Shown piece by piece: positions 34,491 to 64,000 of a stretch of 64,000 nt of DNA. The stretch spans positions 30,807 to 94,806 of the forward strand of contig JASJDR010000004.1 of the NCBI GenBank assembly GCA_030065615.1. Reading direction: 5' to 3'. The notes below the pieces were generated by a model that did not search any database, had not been told where the DNA came from, and worked only from the letters and a program-made list of their open reading frames with translations. This DNA is from Xenococcus sp. MO_188.B8. Its GTDB lineage: Bacteria > Cyanobacteriota > Cyanobacteriia > Cyanobacteriales > Xenococcaceae. Both the position numbers and the translations under genes were made by a program. Each line of letters starts with the position of its first letter. The stretch's first letter is position 1.

Positions 34491-34829
34491 TTATGGTCTT
34501 CTTAAAGGTTGGGGGTTAACGCTTTCGCGGAATTGTTCTACCGCTTCGGTATAACGAATCGGTAGTACATATTCCAGGTTTTCATGGGGGCGAGCAATAA
34601 TGTGATGGGATAATACTTGACCGCCATTAACTCGTCCCACATTATCAATTCCAGCAGATACGGAAGCTTGAACTTCTGATACATCACCGCGAACAATTAC
34701 TGTCACACGACCAGTACCAATTTTCTCGTAGCCGACTAGGGTAACGCGAGCTGCTTTAACCATCGCGTCAGCGGCTTCTACTACTGCGGGAAACCCCAAG
34801 GTTTCCACCATTCCTACTGCGATCGACAT
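34491..34829 (-). CDS. ccmK: Carboxysome shell hexamer CcmK with C-terminal extension (112 aa)
   Basis: A BMC-domain shell protein: [20 protein letters not shown], pore loop [21 protein letters not shown] and [19 protein letters not shown]. Compared with the other two copies it ends [15 protein letters not shown] instead of EQFRSY, so the C-terminal helix edge is longer. The ATG at 34829 matches the conserved start, and a TTG one codon earlier is ignored. It lies 28 bases upstream of ccmL. Confidence 0.95.
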
Positions 34830-34887
34830 CAATTTACTCCTTTACTTGGTTTGCTAGTTTTTCGGCTGTTAGTCGTTGGGTAATTAT

Positions 34888-35199
34888 CTAATACGACCTA
34901 AATTGCTCTACTTCTTCTGTATAGCGAATCGGTAACACATATTCGAGGTTTTCGTGAGGGCGAGCAATAATGTGATGGGACAAAACTTTACCGCCATTGA
35001 CTCTACCGACATTTTCAATTCCAGCAGCTACAGAAGCTTGGACTTCTGATACATCCCCGCGGACAATTACTGTCACGCGACCAGTCCCGATCTTTTCATA
35101 GCCGACTAAAGTAACGCGAGCTGCTTTAACCATAGCGTCAGCAGCTTCTACTACTGCGGGAAAACCCAAGGTTTCCACCATTCCTACTGCGATAGACAA
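34888..35199 (-). CDS. ccmK: Carboxysome shell hexamer CcmK (TTG start, 103 aa)
   Basis: A BMC shell protein nearly identical to its neighbours, with pore loop KIGTGR and the variant [21 protein letters not shown]. The start codon is TTG: the bases correspond exactly to the ATG of the flanking copies ([12 protein letters not shown]), with AAGGAG seven bases before. The weak initiator on a major shell gene may tune its ratio to the flanking copies. It is the middle one of three tandem ccmK genes. Confidence 0.95.
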
Positions 35200-35262: not shown

Positions 35263-35574
35263 CTAATACGAACGGAATTGTTCTACTTCTTCTGTATAGC
35301 GAATCGGTAGGACATATTCGAGGTTTTCATGGGGACGAGCAATGATGTGAGTGGATAAGACTTCTCCACCATTGACTCGGTTAGCAGCTTCAGTCCCAGC
35401 AGAAACAGAAGCTTGGACTTCTGATACATCCCCGCGAACAATTACTGTTACACGACCAGTTCCGATTTTTTCGTAACCTACTAGGGTAACGCGAGCTGCT
35501 TTGACCATAGCATCGGCAGCTTCTACTACTGCGGGAAATCCCAGAGTTTCAATCATTCCTACTGCAATAGGCAT
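35263..35574 (-). CDS. ccmK1: Carboxysome shell hexamer CcmK, first copy (CcmK1-like, 103 aa)
   Basis: The first gene of the ccm operon: [20 protein letters not shown], pore loop KIGTGR at residues 36-41, then [20 protein letters not shown] and [20 protein letters not shown]. It differs from the other two copies in residues 2 and 8 and in the TEAAN...EVLST stretch. Residues 31-82 of this protein recur without change in the leader-fused peptide at 63468-63707. The K1 label follows position and sequence type; paralogue numbering varies between strains. Confidence 0.95.
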
Positions 35575-61668: not shown

Positions 61669-62583
61669 TATTTCGGGTCGGAGTAATTTTTATATTAATT
61701 AAGTTAAGAGAATCTCTTTTGCTTTGGAGGATTTGGCGATCGCGTCTCCCATACCCGCTTTCGCGCGCAAGCGCTGACAGAACTAGTGTAAACCGATTAC
61801 ACACAGGTTTTAGCATTATACGGCGGTTATTAAATAAGGTCTCCCTGCGGTCAGTTTGTTTCGGCTTGGCAAGGGTCTAGTCATGCTGCGTCGGGGCTGT
61901 TAATTGAGGTCGCTTCGCGGTTTGTTATTTGCCCCACTTGCCCTTGCCTTCGCCTAGAACCGCCGTGATGAGACAGTGTTGTGTCTCTTTCGGGGGTTTT
62001 GTTTCGTGTCTGTTTCAGTTGCTGGTGCTGTTTCTTCTCCGCCTTCTTGTCCTGCTCCTTTCCCTGGTGAGGTGCGTCGTTTGGCGGTTGCTGCTGGTGC
62101 TGACTGGCTCTGTCTGCGTCCTTCTGTTCGCTCCTTTTCTCGCTGGTGCGTTGTCGTGTACTTTTCTTCTCGTGCTGCTGTCTCTGCGTTTGCTGCTCCT
62201 GTTGCTGGTTTGTTGCCTGGTGCTGCCTTCTCTGCTGGTGTCTCCTCTGTTGTCCTGCGCCGTTGTGGTGCCTGGTGGTGCGTTTCTGTGCCTGTGTCGG
62301 TGCTTTTCCCTCTTGTGCCTGTTTCTCGCTGTCCTTGTTTGTTTGCTCCTGTTGGCTAGTTTCTGTTGGCGGTTCGTCCGCCTTTTTTTAGAAGCTAATT
62401 TCCTGTCAAGAAATATGAATGTAATGTCAAGAAATATGACTAAATTGATTGTTCAGGAGCCAATCCTGTATTATGTTTAAAATAAAAAGTAATCAAGTTG
62501 GCGTCTCATAAGTAGTTAGGCTTTGTGTTTTTTCTTCTTGGGGACTGACGAGCTCTGTATAATTAAAGCTGGGGGTGAAGCTA
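61669..62583. other. Gene-poor region with an adenine-depleted tract
   Basis: About 915 bases. The first part has mixed GC-rich elements (CGCTTTCGCGCGCAAGCGCT near 61757). The middle, 61977-62357, is almost free of A (separate entry). It is followed by two direct copies of TGTCAAGAAATATGA (62404-62418 and 62425-62439, 21-base period). No convincing gene is present. Confidence 0.6.
61977..62357 (+). other. Adenine-depleted T/C/G tract; no assigned product
   Basis: On the plus strand only four A occur between 61981 and 62357, and none at all from 62161 to 62357 (197 bases). The content is T, C and G with recurring CTGCTGGT and TTCTCC words. All stop codons contain A, and the complementary strand lacks T, so all six frames are open by composition. 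Three overlapping frames (61929-62480, 61976-62359 and 62146-62391) therefore carry no weight as genes. Origin is unknown. Confidence 0.75.
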
Positions 62584-62799
62584 ATGATTCGCTGGTTTTT
62601 TGAAAAACTCCGTAATTTGTTTTCGACTGAAGTTCCGGCAGCTCTTGCTGCTTGTGAGTTTGACTGTCGAGAGGTGGAATGTCTAACTAAAGAGTTCCTG
62701 ACTTGCCCCAGACGTCTGCAAAAAGCAGAAGCTCTGAAAAGGTTATCTGAAGCCGAGCCAACAAATAATTTTAAATCCCAAAGCTCCACTTTGGGGTAA
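62584..62799 (+). CDS. Unrecognised Cys-containing small protein (71 aa)
   Basis: The sequence starts MIRWFFEKLRNLFSTEVPAA, then LAACEFDCREVECLTKEFLT and CPRRLQKAEALKRL. Four Cys in a C-x3-C-x4-C-x7-C pattern could bind metal. An ATG with GGGGGTG upstream is chosen over a GTG nine bases earlier. Basic and acidic residues alternate in a helix-like N-terminus. I do not recognise the family. It lies just before the leader-fused peptide genes, on the opposite strand. Confidence 0.5.
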   Translation: MIRWFFEKLRNLFSTEVPAALAACEFDCREVECLTKEFLTCPRRLQKAEALKRLSEAEPTNNFKSQSSTLG

Positions 62800-62891
62800 G
62801 AGCGCGAGAGATTTGTAACATGAGTCTTGAGTGAAATCTATATCTGAAATTAGTAAATTAAATTATTTAAATAATATCTGATTTACTTTGC

Positions 62892-63107
62892 TTATTGTAG
62901 CACCCCTGGCATTAAAGGTCTACCTGGAAAATGTTCAGGAAAATAGGGTTCATCAAAGGTAACATTAGGTATTATATCTGTTTTCGCAATTGCTGGTAAT
63001 AATTCTCTCAGTTCTTGAAAATCGACACAACCACCAACAACTTGATTCATGTCATCGAGGGATAATCTTTCCAATGTTTCGATGTCTTCTATTTTGAGAT
63101 TAGTCAT
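62892..63107 (-). CDS. Double-glycine-leader peptide fused to a FabZ-like fragment (71 aa)
   Basis: Residues 1-26 form a leader of the type removed by C39-peptidase ABC exporters: acidic/helical [20 protein letters not shown], then NQVVGG with Gly-Gly at 25-26. The mature part starts with Cys: [20 protein letters not shown], then [13 protein letters not shown], then [12 protein letters not shown]. The last two stretches are the conserved segment of 3-hydroxyacyl-ACP dehydratase FabZ (NVTF(N/D)EP.F...HFPGRP.MPGVL). ELRELLP recalls the IxxLLP before the FabZ active site, but the region carrying the catalytic His is absent and the chain stops before the catalytic Glu. It cannot be an enzyme. A strong AGGAGG lies six bases before the ATG. 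What is seen: leader plus fragment. Export and role are inference. Confidence 0.75.
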
Positions 63108-63166
63108 AGGAACCTCCTCAAAAAATTACAATACACCTGTAACCAAATGATAACGAAGGTTAGTAA

Positions 63167-63313
63167 ATGCCTTTATTAACTTTAGTAAAACATGGCAAAT
63201 CAGGAGTAAACTGCGGTATCAACTGGAGATTCCTAAAAAGAGCAGGTAATACTACCAAATCAAAAACATTTAATAATATCTCTCTGTTACAATACATCAT
63301 GAAGTACCAATAA
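63167..63313 (+). CDS. Possible small basic peptide between the two leader-peptide genes (48 aa)
   Basis: ATG 63167 has GAAGG seven bases upstream. The sequence, MPLLTLVKHGKSGVNCGINW then RFLKRAGNTTKSKTF, is rich in Lys/Arg with a single Cys. It is antisense-oriented to both neighbours, at the place where an immunity or accessory gene might be expected. The only support is the ribosome site and composition. Confidence 0.25.
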   Translation: MPLLTLVKHGKSGVNCGINWRFLKRAGNTTKSKTFNNISLLQYIMKYQ

Positions 63314-63467
63314 CAGAAACTTTGGCGCCGATCACTATTAAATATCTAAACCCAGATCGCGGCGTCTTAAGATACATCGCAACTATCAACACCTACTGAG
63401 AGAAGCAGAAGTTAATGAATTGACAATACTTGCTCTTCCTACTGAACCATCGCACGCTTGCAACTGC

Positions 63468-63707
63468 TTAATTTTCGAGTTTTTTATGGGGGCGAGCAAT
63501 GATGTGAGTCGACAAAACTTCTCCACCATTGACTCGGTTAGCAGCTTCAGTGCCAGCCGAGACGGAAGCTTGGACCTCCGATACATCACCGCGGACAATT
63601 ACCGTCACGCGGCCTGTACCAATCTTTTCATAACCTACCAAACCACCTGAAATACTCGCAGCTTCTTCGTTAGTGAGTTTTCTTAAATTTAGCTCTTCTA
63701 TGTTCAT
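63468..63707 (-). CDS. Double-glycine-leader peptide fused to a CcmK fragment (79 aa)
   Basis: Residues 1-22 ([20 protein letters not shown] then GG) are a classical double-glycine leader. From residue 23 the sequence equals residues 31-82 of the CcmK1 encoded at 35263-35574, without a single change over 52 residues: [20 protein letters not shown] through HIIARPH, including the hexamer pore loop KIGTGR. It then ends KKLEN. At DNA level 22 of these 52 codons differ from ccmK1 (23 base changes), all silent; 14 changes raise GC and 5 lower it. Strong selection on the protein sequence is the direct implication. The BMC domain lacks its first strand and helix and its C-terminal third, so it should not form a normal shell tile. 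Only a weak GGTG precedes the ATG. Export is inferred from the leader; function is unknown. Confidence 0.78.
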
Positions 63708-63927
63708 AACTGTAACACCAAAGAAAACTATACTTGAACACTAGCATTAGATGATGAAAAACTCCATTAAGATTGGCAGGCTTTTCAGACGATCAGCTGC
63801 TGAAAAGATAGAATTAAATATCGCGATCGCACCTGGGACGATAAAATAAGATCAGAATCCGCGATCGCTATAATCCTTATAAAAGCTTAATTTCTCATGC
63901 CTTGAGGTGAAATTAATTGAATTTAGC
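63708..63927. promoter_or_regulatory. Upstream region of the leader-CcmK gene
   Basis: 220 bases with two HIP1 octamers (GCGATCGC near 63824 and 63864) and no gene. It should contain the promoter of the leader-peptide gene unless that is transcribed from the partial gene at the right edge. Confidence 0.4.
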
Positions 63928-64000
63928 TCATACTTCCAGGAGTTGTATTTTACTCTTAATCACTTCAAACAACATATTTGCTTCATCTATATTCAGCTCT
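63928..64000 (-). CDS. C-terminal end of a gene entering from the right (24 residues visible)
   Basis: A minus-strand frame is open from the window edge to a TGA at 63928. It reads ELNIDEANMLFEVIKSKIQL then LEV: helical and gene-like. Too short to identify. As the next gene upstream of the leader peptides it deserves attention as a possible processing or export partner. Confidence 0.35.
   Translation of the reverse strand, partial: ELNIDEANMLFEVIKSKIQLLEV

Follow-up and report, generated by a model that had tools for sequence, protein, structure and literature searches.

The window, meaning the whole stretch of 64,000 nucleotides analysed here (G000:C257:30807-94806), ends where its contig ends, in a draft genome of 8.26 Mb that comprises 354 contigs and shows 4.61% contamination. 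Less than 1.2 kb from this contig end lie two short genes on the minus strand, here called ORF A and ORF B. ORF A (63468-63707, 79 amino acids), established from the ORF list and a Pfam BMC match, consists of a 22-amino-acid double-glycine (GG) leader ending in SISGG (63642-63707), which was recognised by leave-out leader HMMs, and a CcmK piece of 57 codons (63471-63641), which was delimited by Pfam and by DNA and codon comparison with the ccmK of the same genome. ORF B (62892-63107, 71 amino acids) was established from the ORF list, Pfam and comparison with genes of its own genome. It starts with a GG leader of 26 amino acids ending in QVVGG (63030-63107), supported by an own-genome leave-out HMM and by a paralogous module, and continues with an N-terminal AccB piece of 19 codons (62973-63029), identified by comparison with accB of its own genome and of the same-genus genome G026. 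Two junction codons (IP) separate the AccB piece from a FabZ piece of 24 codons (62895-62966; Pfam and DNA comparison with fabZ), which ends in GVLQ and is directly followed by TAA.

The preliminary description of this DNA had recognised two neighbouring minus-strand genes in which a GG leader is joined to pieces of housekeeping proteins, and both reading frames are indeed present at the positions it gave. Its CcmK and FabZ cores are also present, but the CcmK piece comprises 57 rather than 52 codons and the AccB piece had been missed. Likewise, the name CcmK1 holds at the level of the CcmK family, but beyond that only the closest of the three full-length ccmK copies in the window can be named. 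These copies are located on the minus strand at 35263-35574, 34888-35199 and 34491-34832, and the first of them is the closest DNA relative that was found for the piece in ORF A.

The start codon of ORF B is preceded by GAGGAGG, which lies within an upstream stretch (63108-63191, minus strand) that ORF B shares by DNA similarity with another GG-peptide gene of the genome, G000:C321:12058. No clear Shine-Dalgarno sequence was seen for ORF A, and a promoter/terminator scan found no excess of promoter-like sites (3, against a mean of 4.2 in shuffled sequences). The neighbouring dehydrogenase gene has its best named relatives in Hyella patelloides (81%) and in Xenococcaceae/Pleurocapsa genomes, which makes a pleurocapsalean the likely source. 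Nearby, positions 61929-62387 form a strand-biased stretch of low complexity, rich in T, C and G on the plus strand and with long open frames in several reading frames, which is followed at 62397-62438 by two copies of a 21-nucleotide repeat ending in CAAGAAATATG.

Double-glycine leaders and export machinery

The window contains 896 stop-to-stop ORFs of at least 30 amino acids, which were searched with two leader HMMs that contained neither of the tested leaders. The HMM built from 135 leaders of other genomes placed ORF A first (E 2.4e-5; next ORF 1.4) and did not find ORF B among these 896 ORFs, while the HMM built from 16 other leaders of the same genome placed ORF B first and ORF A second (E 0.0011 and 0.0021; next ORF 2.8). 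The test is not wholly independent, because the training leaders had partly been gathered with profiles that contained both tested leaders. Judged from these matches, the N-termini of ORF A and ORF B are GG-type leaders.

For ORF B, the leader and the 84 nucleotides upstream of it show 77% identity over 162 nucleotides with the gene at C321:12058, and the similarity ends at the GGTGGT codons that encode the two glycines. By this similarity, the ORF B leader is a copied module that is also found elsewhere in the genome and ends at GG. The C321 locus (G000:C321:11014-12171, corresponding to L324:3015-4172) carries two GG-leader ORFs, one of which is the paralogue of the ORF B leader. The paralogue adjoins a GrrP-like gene, which scores just below the model cut-off, and a gene for a GrrM/OscB cyclophane maturase of the radical SAM type, which scores above it; the locus also holds the start of a cyclic-peptide ABC exporter.

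The genome contains 13 C39-peptidase places, ten of which are in open frames of more than 700 amino acids, and GG ORFs are found near three of them (on contigs C155, C161 and C185). With 22 leader matches it has the highest count among 368 genomes of the order, by a profile for which its own leaders were the main source. The GG leaders of the preliminary description are thus borne out by the leave-out HMMs and stand in a genome rich in GG peptides and C39 exporters. The nearby C39 transporter that it had suggested looking for is absent, since none of the 13 places lies on the contig of ORF A and ORF B (C257, 94.8 kb). Considered as precursors for C39/PCAT transporters, the two genes have the leader and the genome has the transporter, and the adjacent transporter gene, which is usual but not required, is missing. 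Broken C39-peptidase fragments with internal stops were observed at G000:C350:16424-16669, close to a GG ORF at C350:15972, and at C280:10284-10502, and both represent decayed exporter loci.

Parentage and constraint of the cores

For the CcmK and FabZ pieces, the nearest relatives are the corresponding genes of their own genome, and for the AccB piece it is accB of a genome of the same genus. ORF A matches positions 28-75 of the 75-position Pfam BMC profile (E 6.1e-14) and thus carries an incomplete BMC domain; its core corresponds to the later two thirds of BMC, lacks the first 27 profile positions and the C-terminal tail of CcmK, and aligns to residues 30-86 of the CcmK homolog 2 chain 3cim_A. 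Compared with the product of the ccmK at 35263-35574, 54 of the 57 residues are equal, including all of the first 52. At the codon level, 22 differences are silent and three change the residue, and these three are confined to the last six codons (HKKLEN in ORF A versus HENLEY).

Within the first 27 codons the piece differs from the three ccmK copies of its genome by 17, 16 and 13 nucleotides, and every one of these differences is silent. Where the copies differ most from each other, it contains a run of 35 nucleotides that is identical to one of them, which fits an origin from that copy or a later gene conversion. The third-position G+C content of the same 27 codons is 0.48, versus 0.19, 0.26 and 0.41 in the own copies, a difference that fits a long separate life of the piece or another donor. 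Possible donors were searched in overlapping draws of 388 genomes of the order and 388 of the class, with two candidate places scored per genome. The ccmK at 35263-35574 was the closest DNA in both draws (86%, followed by 84% in the order draw and 82% in the class draw), and thus these draws revealed no foreign source from which the CcmK piece could recently have come.

For a codon model, a ccmK tree of 85 sequences was used, containing the piece and 84 different ccmK stretches from family loci and from the best hits in the order, from which sequences with gaps, N or stops had been dropped. The nearest tip to the piece was a ccmK of its own genome. On the branch of the piece, which includes any time spent inside an unsampled full-length ccmK, dN/dS was 0.044 over the 57 codons and fell to its lower bound when only the first 52 were taken, compared with 0.024 on the other branches of the tree. 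Setting dN/dS to 1 on this branch was worse by 2dlnL values of 21.1 for 57 codons, 32.9 for the first 52 and 27.8 for the first 27. The earlier proposal that the CcmK fragment is functional is thereby strengthened by a strong signal of purifying selection. A recent arrival of the piece from a diverged donor ccmK outside the sample would produce the same signal. Given the almost wholly silent divergence, selection seems to have maintained the piece as a peptide, and not only in the time before its capture, and the CcmK fusion is therefore likely to be a working peptide.

From 24 aligned sequences, the fold of ORF A was predicted with low confidence (pLDDT 53.8), and a pre-folded 'poison' domain is therefore not indicated. 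The low score may instead mean that the core needs a partner, for which CcmK would be the obvious candidate.

The cores of ORF B give a different picture. Its FabZ piece covers only positions 32-54 of the 138-position Pfam FabA/FabZ profile, an incomplete domain, and shows over 72 nucleotides 91.7% DNA identity with the own fabZ and 86.1% with fabZ of G026; among its 24 codons, four differ from the own gene silently and two with a change of residue. The AccB piece shows 71% identity with the own AccB (contig C162) over query positions 27-47, and its DNA is nearer to accB of G026 (12 of 57 nucleotides differ) than to the own accB (17 of 57); eight of its 19 codons differ silently from the own gene and four change the residue. 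With the GTG immediately ahead of SVDFQ taken as the start of accB, the AccB piece would begin at codon 2, directly after the GG codons. Judged by these counts, the FabZ/AccB gene carries no clear sign of selection.

Occurrence in other records and among other precursors

A profile of the leader-CcmK fusions was searched against a collection of 5.8 billion proteins, which gave 4880 shared-word candidates and 1360 hits, of which the best 120 were examined. ORF A and two further proteins, P0004 and P0021, all three of which are contained in the profile, reached 171, 173 and 152 bits, and the next hit had 123. Apart from ordinary CcmK, P0004 and P0021 were the only others among the best 120 of the 1360 hits. 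P0004, encoded on a contig of 573 bases, combines the same 22-residue leader with a different type of CcmK core and a complete CcmK tail. In P0021 the leader has diverged, with about two thirds of its residues alike, and the protein terminates in HENLE, one residue short of the end of ORF A. Changes among the three fusions cluster near the leader junction, in the core-type stretch and at the tail. A combination of FabZ and AccB occurs in P0002, in the reverse order to ORF B and without a recognised leader; the idea that its N-terminus is a frameshifted leader was dropped, because the leader model gives no match. From these sequences, such fusions appear to exist in other records, if rarely. 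P0014, a CcmK-like protein of 93 amino acids, is shorter by about ten residues close to its N-terminus and carries no leader.

Neither a leader-CcmK nor an AccB/FabZ fusion was found in the 26 other genomes of the family. When the DNA of window positions 62800-64000 was compared with 388 genomes of the order (two best candidates scored per genome), only ccmK-like places appeared among the matches listed. The surroundings of the dehydrogenase relatives, with 80 out of 211 loci kept, some of them with little upstream sequence, gave no blastn match to window positions 61671-64000 at E 1e-3 and no match to either peptide at 0.1. A conserved locus in relatives, the test by which the preliminary description had proposed to judge its idea, was rejected on the grounds of both searches. 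In plasmids only two weak matches were obtained, to BMC-type genes in Rahnella and E. coli records, and the DNA pattern of the leader, in which CTN was the only codon form admitted for the first leucine, gave no match in a search of genome contigs that perhaps left out records near the window's genome.

Whether housekeeping-derived cores are common was judged from 209 unique ORFs with a leader match, taken from the loci of the listed matches. Among these, 201 have cores of at least 15 residues, and removal of similar cores left 131 non-redundant precursors, which were scanned in Pfam and NCBIfam at E 0.01. Clear housekeeping matches among the matches listed came from two of the 131, with one member each for BMC and FabA/FabZ, and these two are ORF A and ORF B. 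The 'CTB family bacteriocin' model NF038167 matches 45 of the 131; single members match Crystall, Inhibitor_I36 and SH3_3 (E 4e-9 to 4.2e-4), and weak single matches (E 0.001-0.01) include several unusual families as well as the NADH oxidoreductase subunit model PRK08183 (E 0.0066). The Crystall match at E 4e-9 is seen at L197:609-938 in the family genome G008, a locus assigned by eye, where a GG leader is followed by what resembles a beta/gamma-crystallin-like domain.

As only two of the 131 precursors have a clear housekeeping core, a wide class is not seen, and a local or rare process is indicated instead. The search for GG-leader ORFs with such cores, which the earlier description had advised, thus returned clearly only its own two examples among the 131 non-redundant precursors and the matches listed. 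The fusion class that it had proposed survives in part, as leader-CcmK fusions occur in two further proteins and an AccB/FabZ fusion in one, but a general class does not. A widespread class of self-fragment peptides was rejected with two of 131 precursors and none of the 26 family genomes.

Possible explanations and known systems

On the best reading of the sequences, ORF A and ORF B are chimeric GG precursors, of which at least the one with the CcmK core would be functional. Spelled out, two GG-type precursors would carry CcmK, AccB and FabZ cores that were likely joined to them by recombination, and for their products, cleavage behind GG and export through C39 transporters are predicted, an account that we favour tentatively and with confidence somewhat short of even. 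Leader modules would be copied within this GG-rich genome and fused, at their GG codons, with parts of other genes; of these chimeras the majority would be lost and the CcmK one kept. Cleavage after GG would be followed by export through one of the C39-peptidase transporters of the genome, and the CcmK core would most likely act as a mimic that pairs or competes with CcmK/BMC subunits, passing between related cells as a signal or in the manner of a bacteriocin. The AccB/FabZ gene may have arisen more recently by the same kind of capture and have no settled function. It counts against the mimic that an exported core would have to enter the cytosol to meet its target. Also counted against the best reading are the lack of either fusion in the 26 other family genomes, the lack of a C39 gene on the contig and of a clear Shine-Dalgarno sequence for ORF A, promoter-like sites no more frequent than in shuffles, the failure of the other-genome HMM to find ORF B, the poor fold of ORF A and the weak constraint on the FabZ and AccB pieces.

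A quite different view, which is a serious possibility although on balance we doubt it, holds both genes to be recent chimeras without function, in which the CcmK piece acquired its silent differences before capture, as part of a full-length ccmK that belonged to a foreign donor or was a paralogue since lost. The missing locus in relatives would then be expected, as would the mosaic structure of ORF B with its premature end and mixed substitution pattern; that all three terminal changes of the CcmK piece alter residues, that its third-position G+C in the first 27 codons exceeds all three own copies, and that the draft genome is large and partly contaminated point the same way. Against such chimeras, the overlapping draws of order and class contain no closer ccmK, the 35-nucleotide run is common with one own ccmK exactly where the three copies differ, and leader and CcmK are combined with intact frames in two further proteins. 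It is improbable, in our estimation, that the products stay in the cell with an incidental or vestigial GG and that the CcmK piece is a cytosolic partner or a dominant-negative fragment that tunes shell assembly. A core of near-perfect CcmK sequence, as pairing with CcmK needs, and a contig without an exporter would suit this possibility, but the leave-out HMMs pick out both N-termini (ORF A by two models, ORF B by the own-genome one) and the ORF B leader is a copied module that ends exactly at GG. An assembly artefact or misjoined reads might be suspected in a draft of so many contigs and for genes so close to a contig end, yet the many silent differences from the own genes, the open frames and the similar fusions in other records make this very improbable indeed.

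If the chimeric precursors are exported as predicted, export leaders would make peptides for export out of parts of essential proteins, which would constitute a direct route from a housekeeping gene to a bacteriocin or signal, and possibly a natural counterpart of dominant-negative fragments, directed against the assembly of carboxysomes. The origin of new GG peptides would also become testable, as a single genome displays leader modules, GG junctions and probable parents. A generalisation, which we regard as unlikely, is that cyanobacteria rich in GG exporters make secreted self-mimics, in which leaders recombine at GG with pieces of essential genes and useful cores such as CcmK are selected, and perhaps refreshed by gene conversion, to interfere with the equivalent protein of rivals or kin.

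Some known systems share single features with these genes. NHLP/Nif11 leader RiPPs, which Haft is said to have described in 2010, reportedly include a precursor family derived partly from a housekeeping enzyme sequence, with the enzyme-derived part as the leader; here, in contrast, the core is of housekeeping origin and the leader a plain GG leader, and neither ORF matches TIGR03793 or TIGR03798 at E up to 1. Pieces of essential proteins can reportedly inhibit the protein from which they are taken, a result ascribed to Savinov in 2025, but those fragments are laboratory-made and intracellular, whereas the peptides considered here are natural and predicted to be exported. The CTB bacteriocin model NF038167 matches neither ORF at E up to 1, and a second search of ORF A at 0.01 again gave no match. 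ORF A is set apart from CcmK/BMC-H shell proteins, and ORF B from the FabZ dehydratase, by the lack of a complete BMC or FabA/FabZ domain, respectively.

A survey of cyanobacterial bacteriocin precursors describes GG leaders, diverse cores and C39 exporters and mentions precursors far from clusters; its main text contains no word beginning with 'housekeeping', 'carboxysome' or 'fragment' (Wang 2011, PMC3140520). No GG precursor with a housekeeping-derived core was found among the listed open-licence papers, as judged mostly by titles and the beginnings of abstracts. The proteins EbfG1-4, which are small secreted proteins in biofilm development, share a GG secretion motif and are paired with the C39 transporter PteB, whose peptidase cysteine is needed for efficient secretion; the abstract of that study speaks of no housekeeping-derived cores (Parnasa 2016, PMC4997328). 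They resemble ORF A and ORF B as short GG precursors and differ in that no transporter lies beside the latter. HetC of Nostoc, a peptidase-containing ABC exporter that is thought to export a signalling peptide (PMC10986499), is comparable as a cyanobacterial exporter of the C39 type.

GG peptides of another kind are encoded in the same genome at G000:C1:46556-48103, where about 1.5 kb hold four near-identical short peptides (MKDKKLQPKQKV...GG) with cores of seven residues, such as WGWSGFW.
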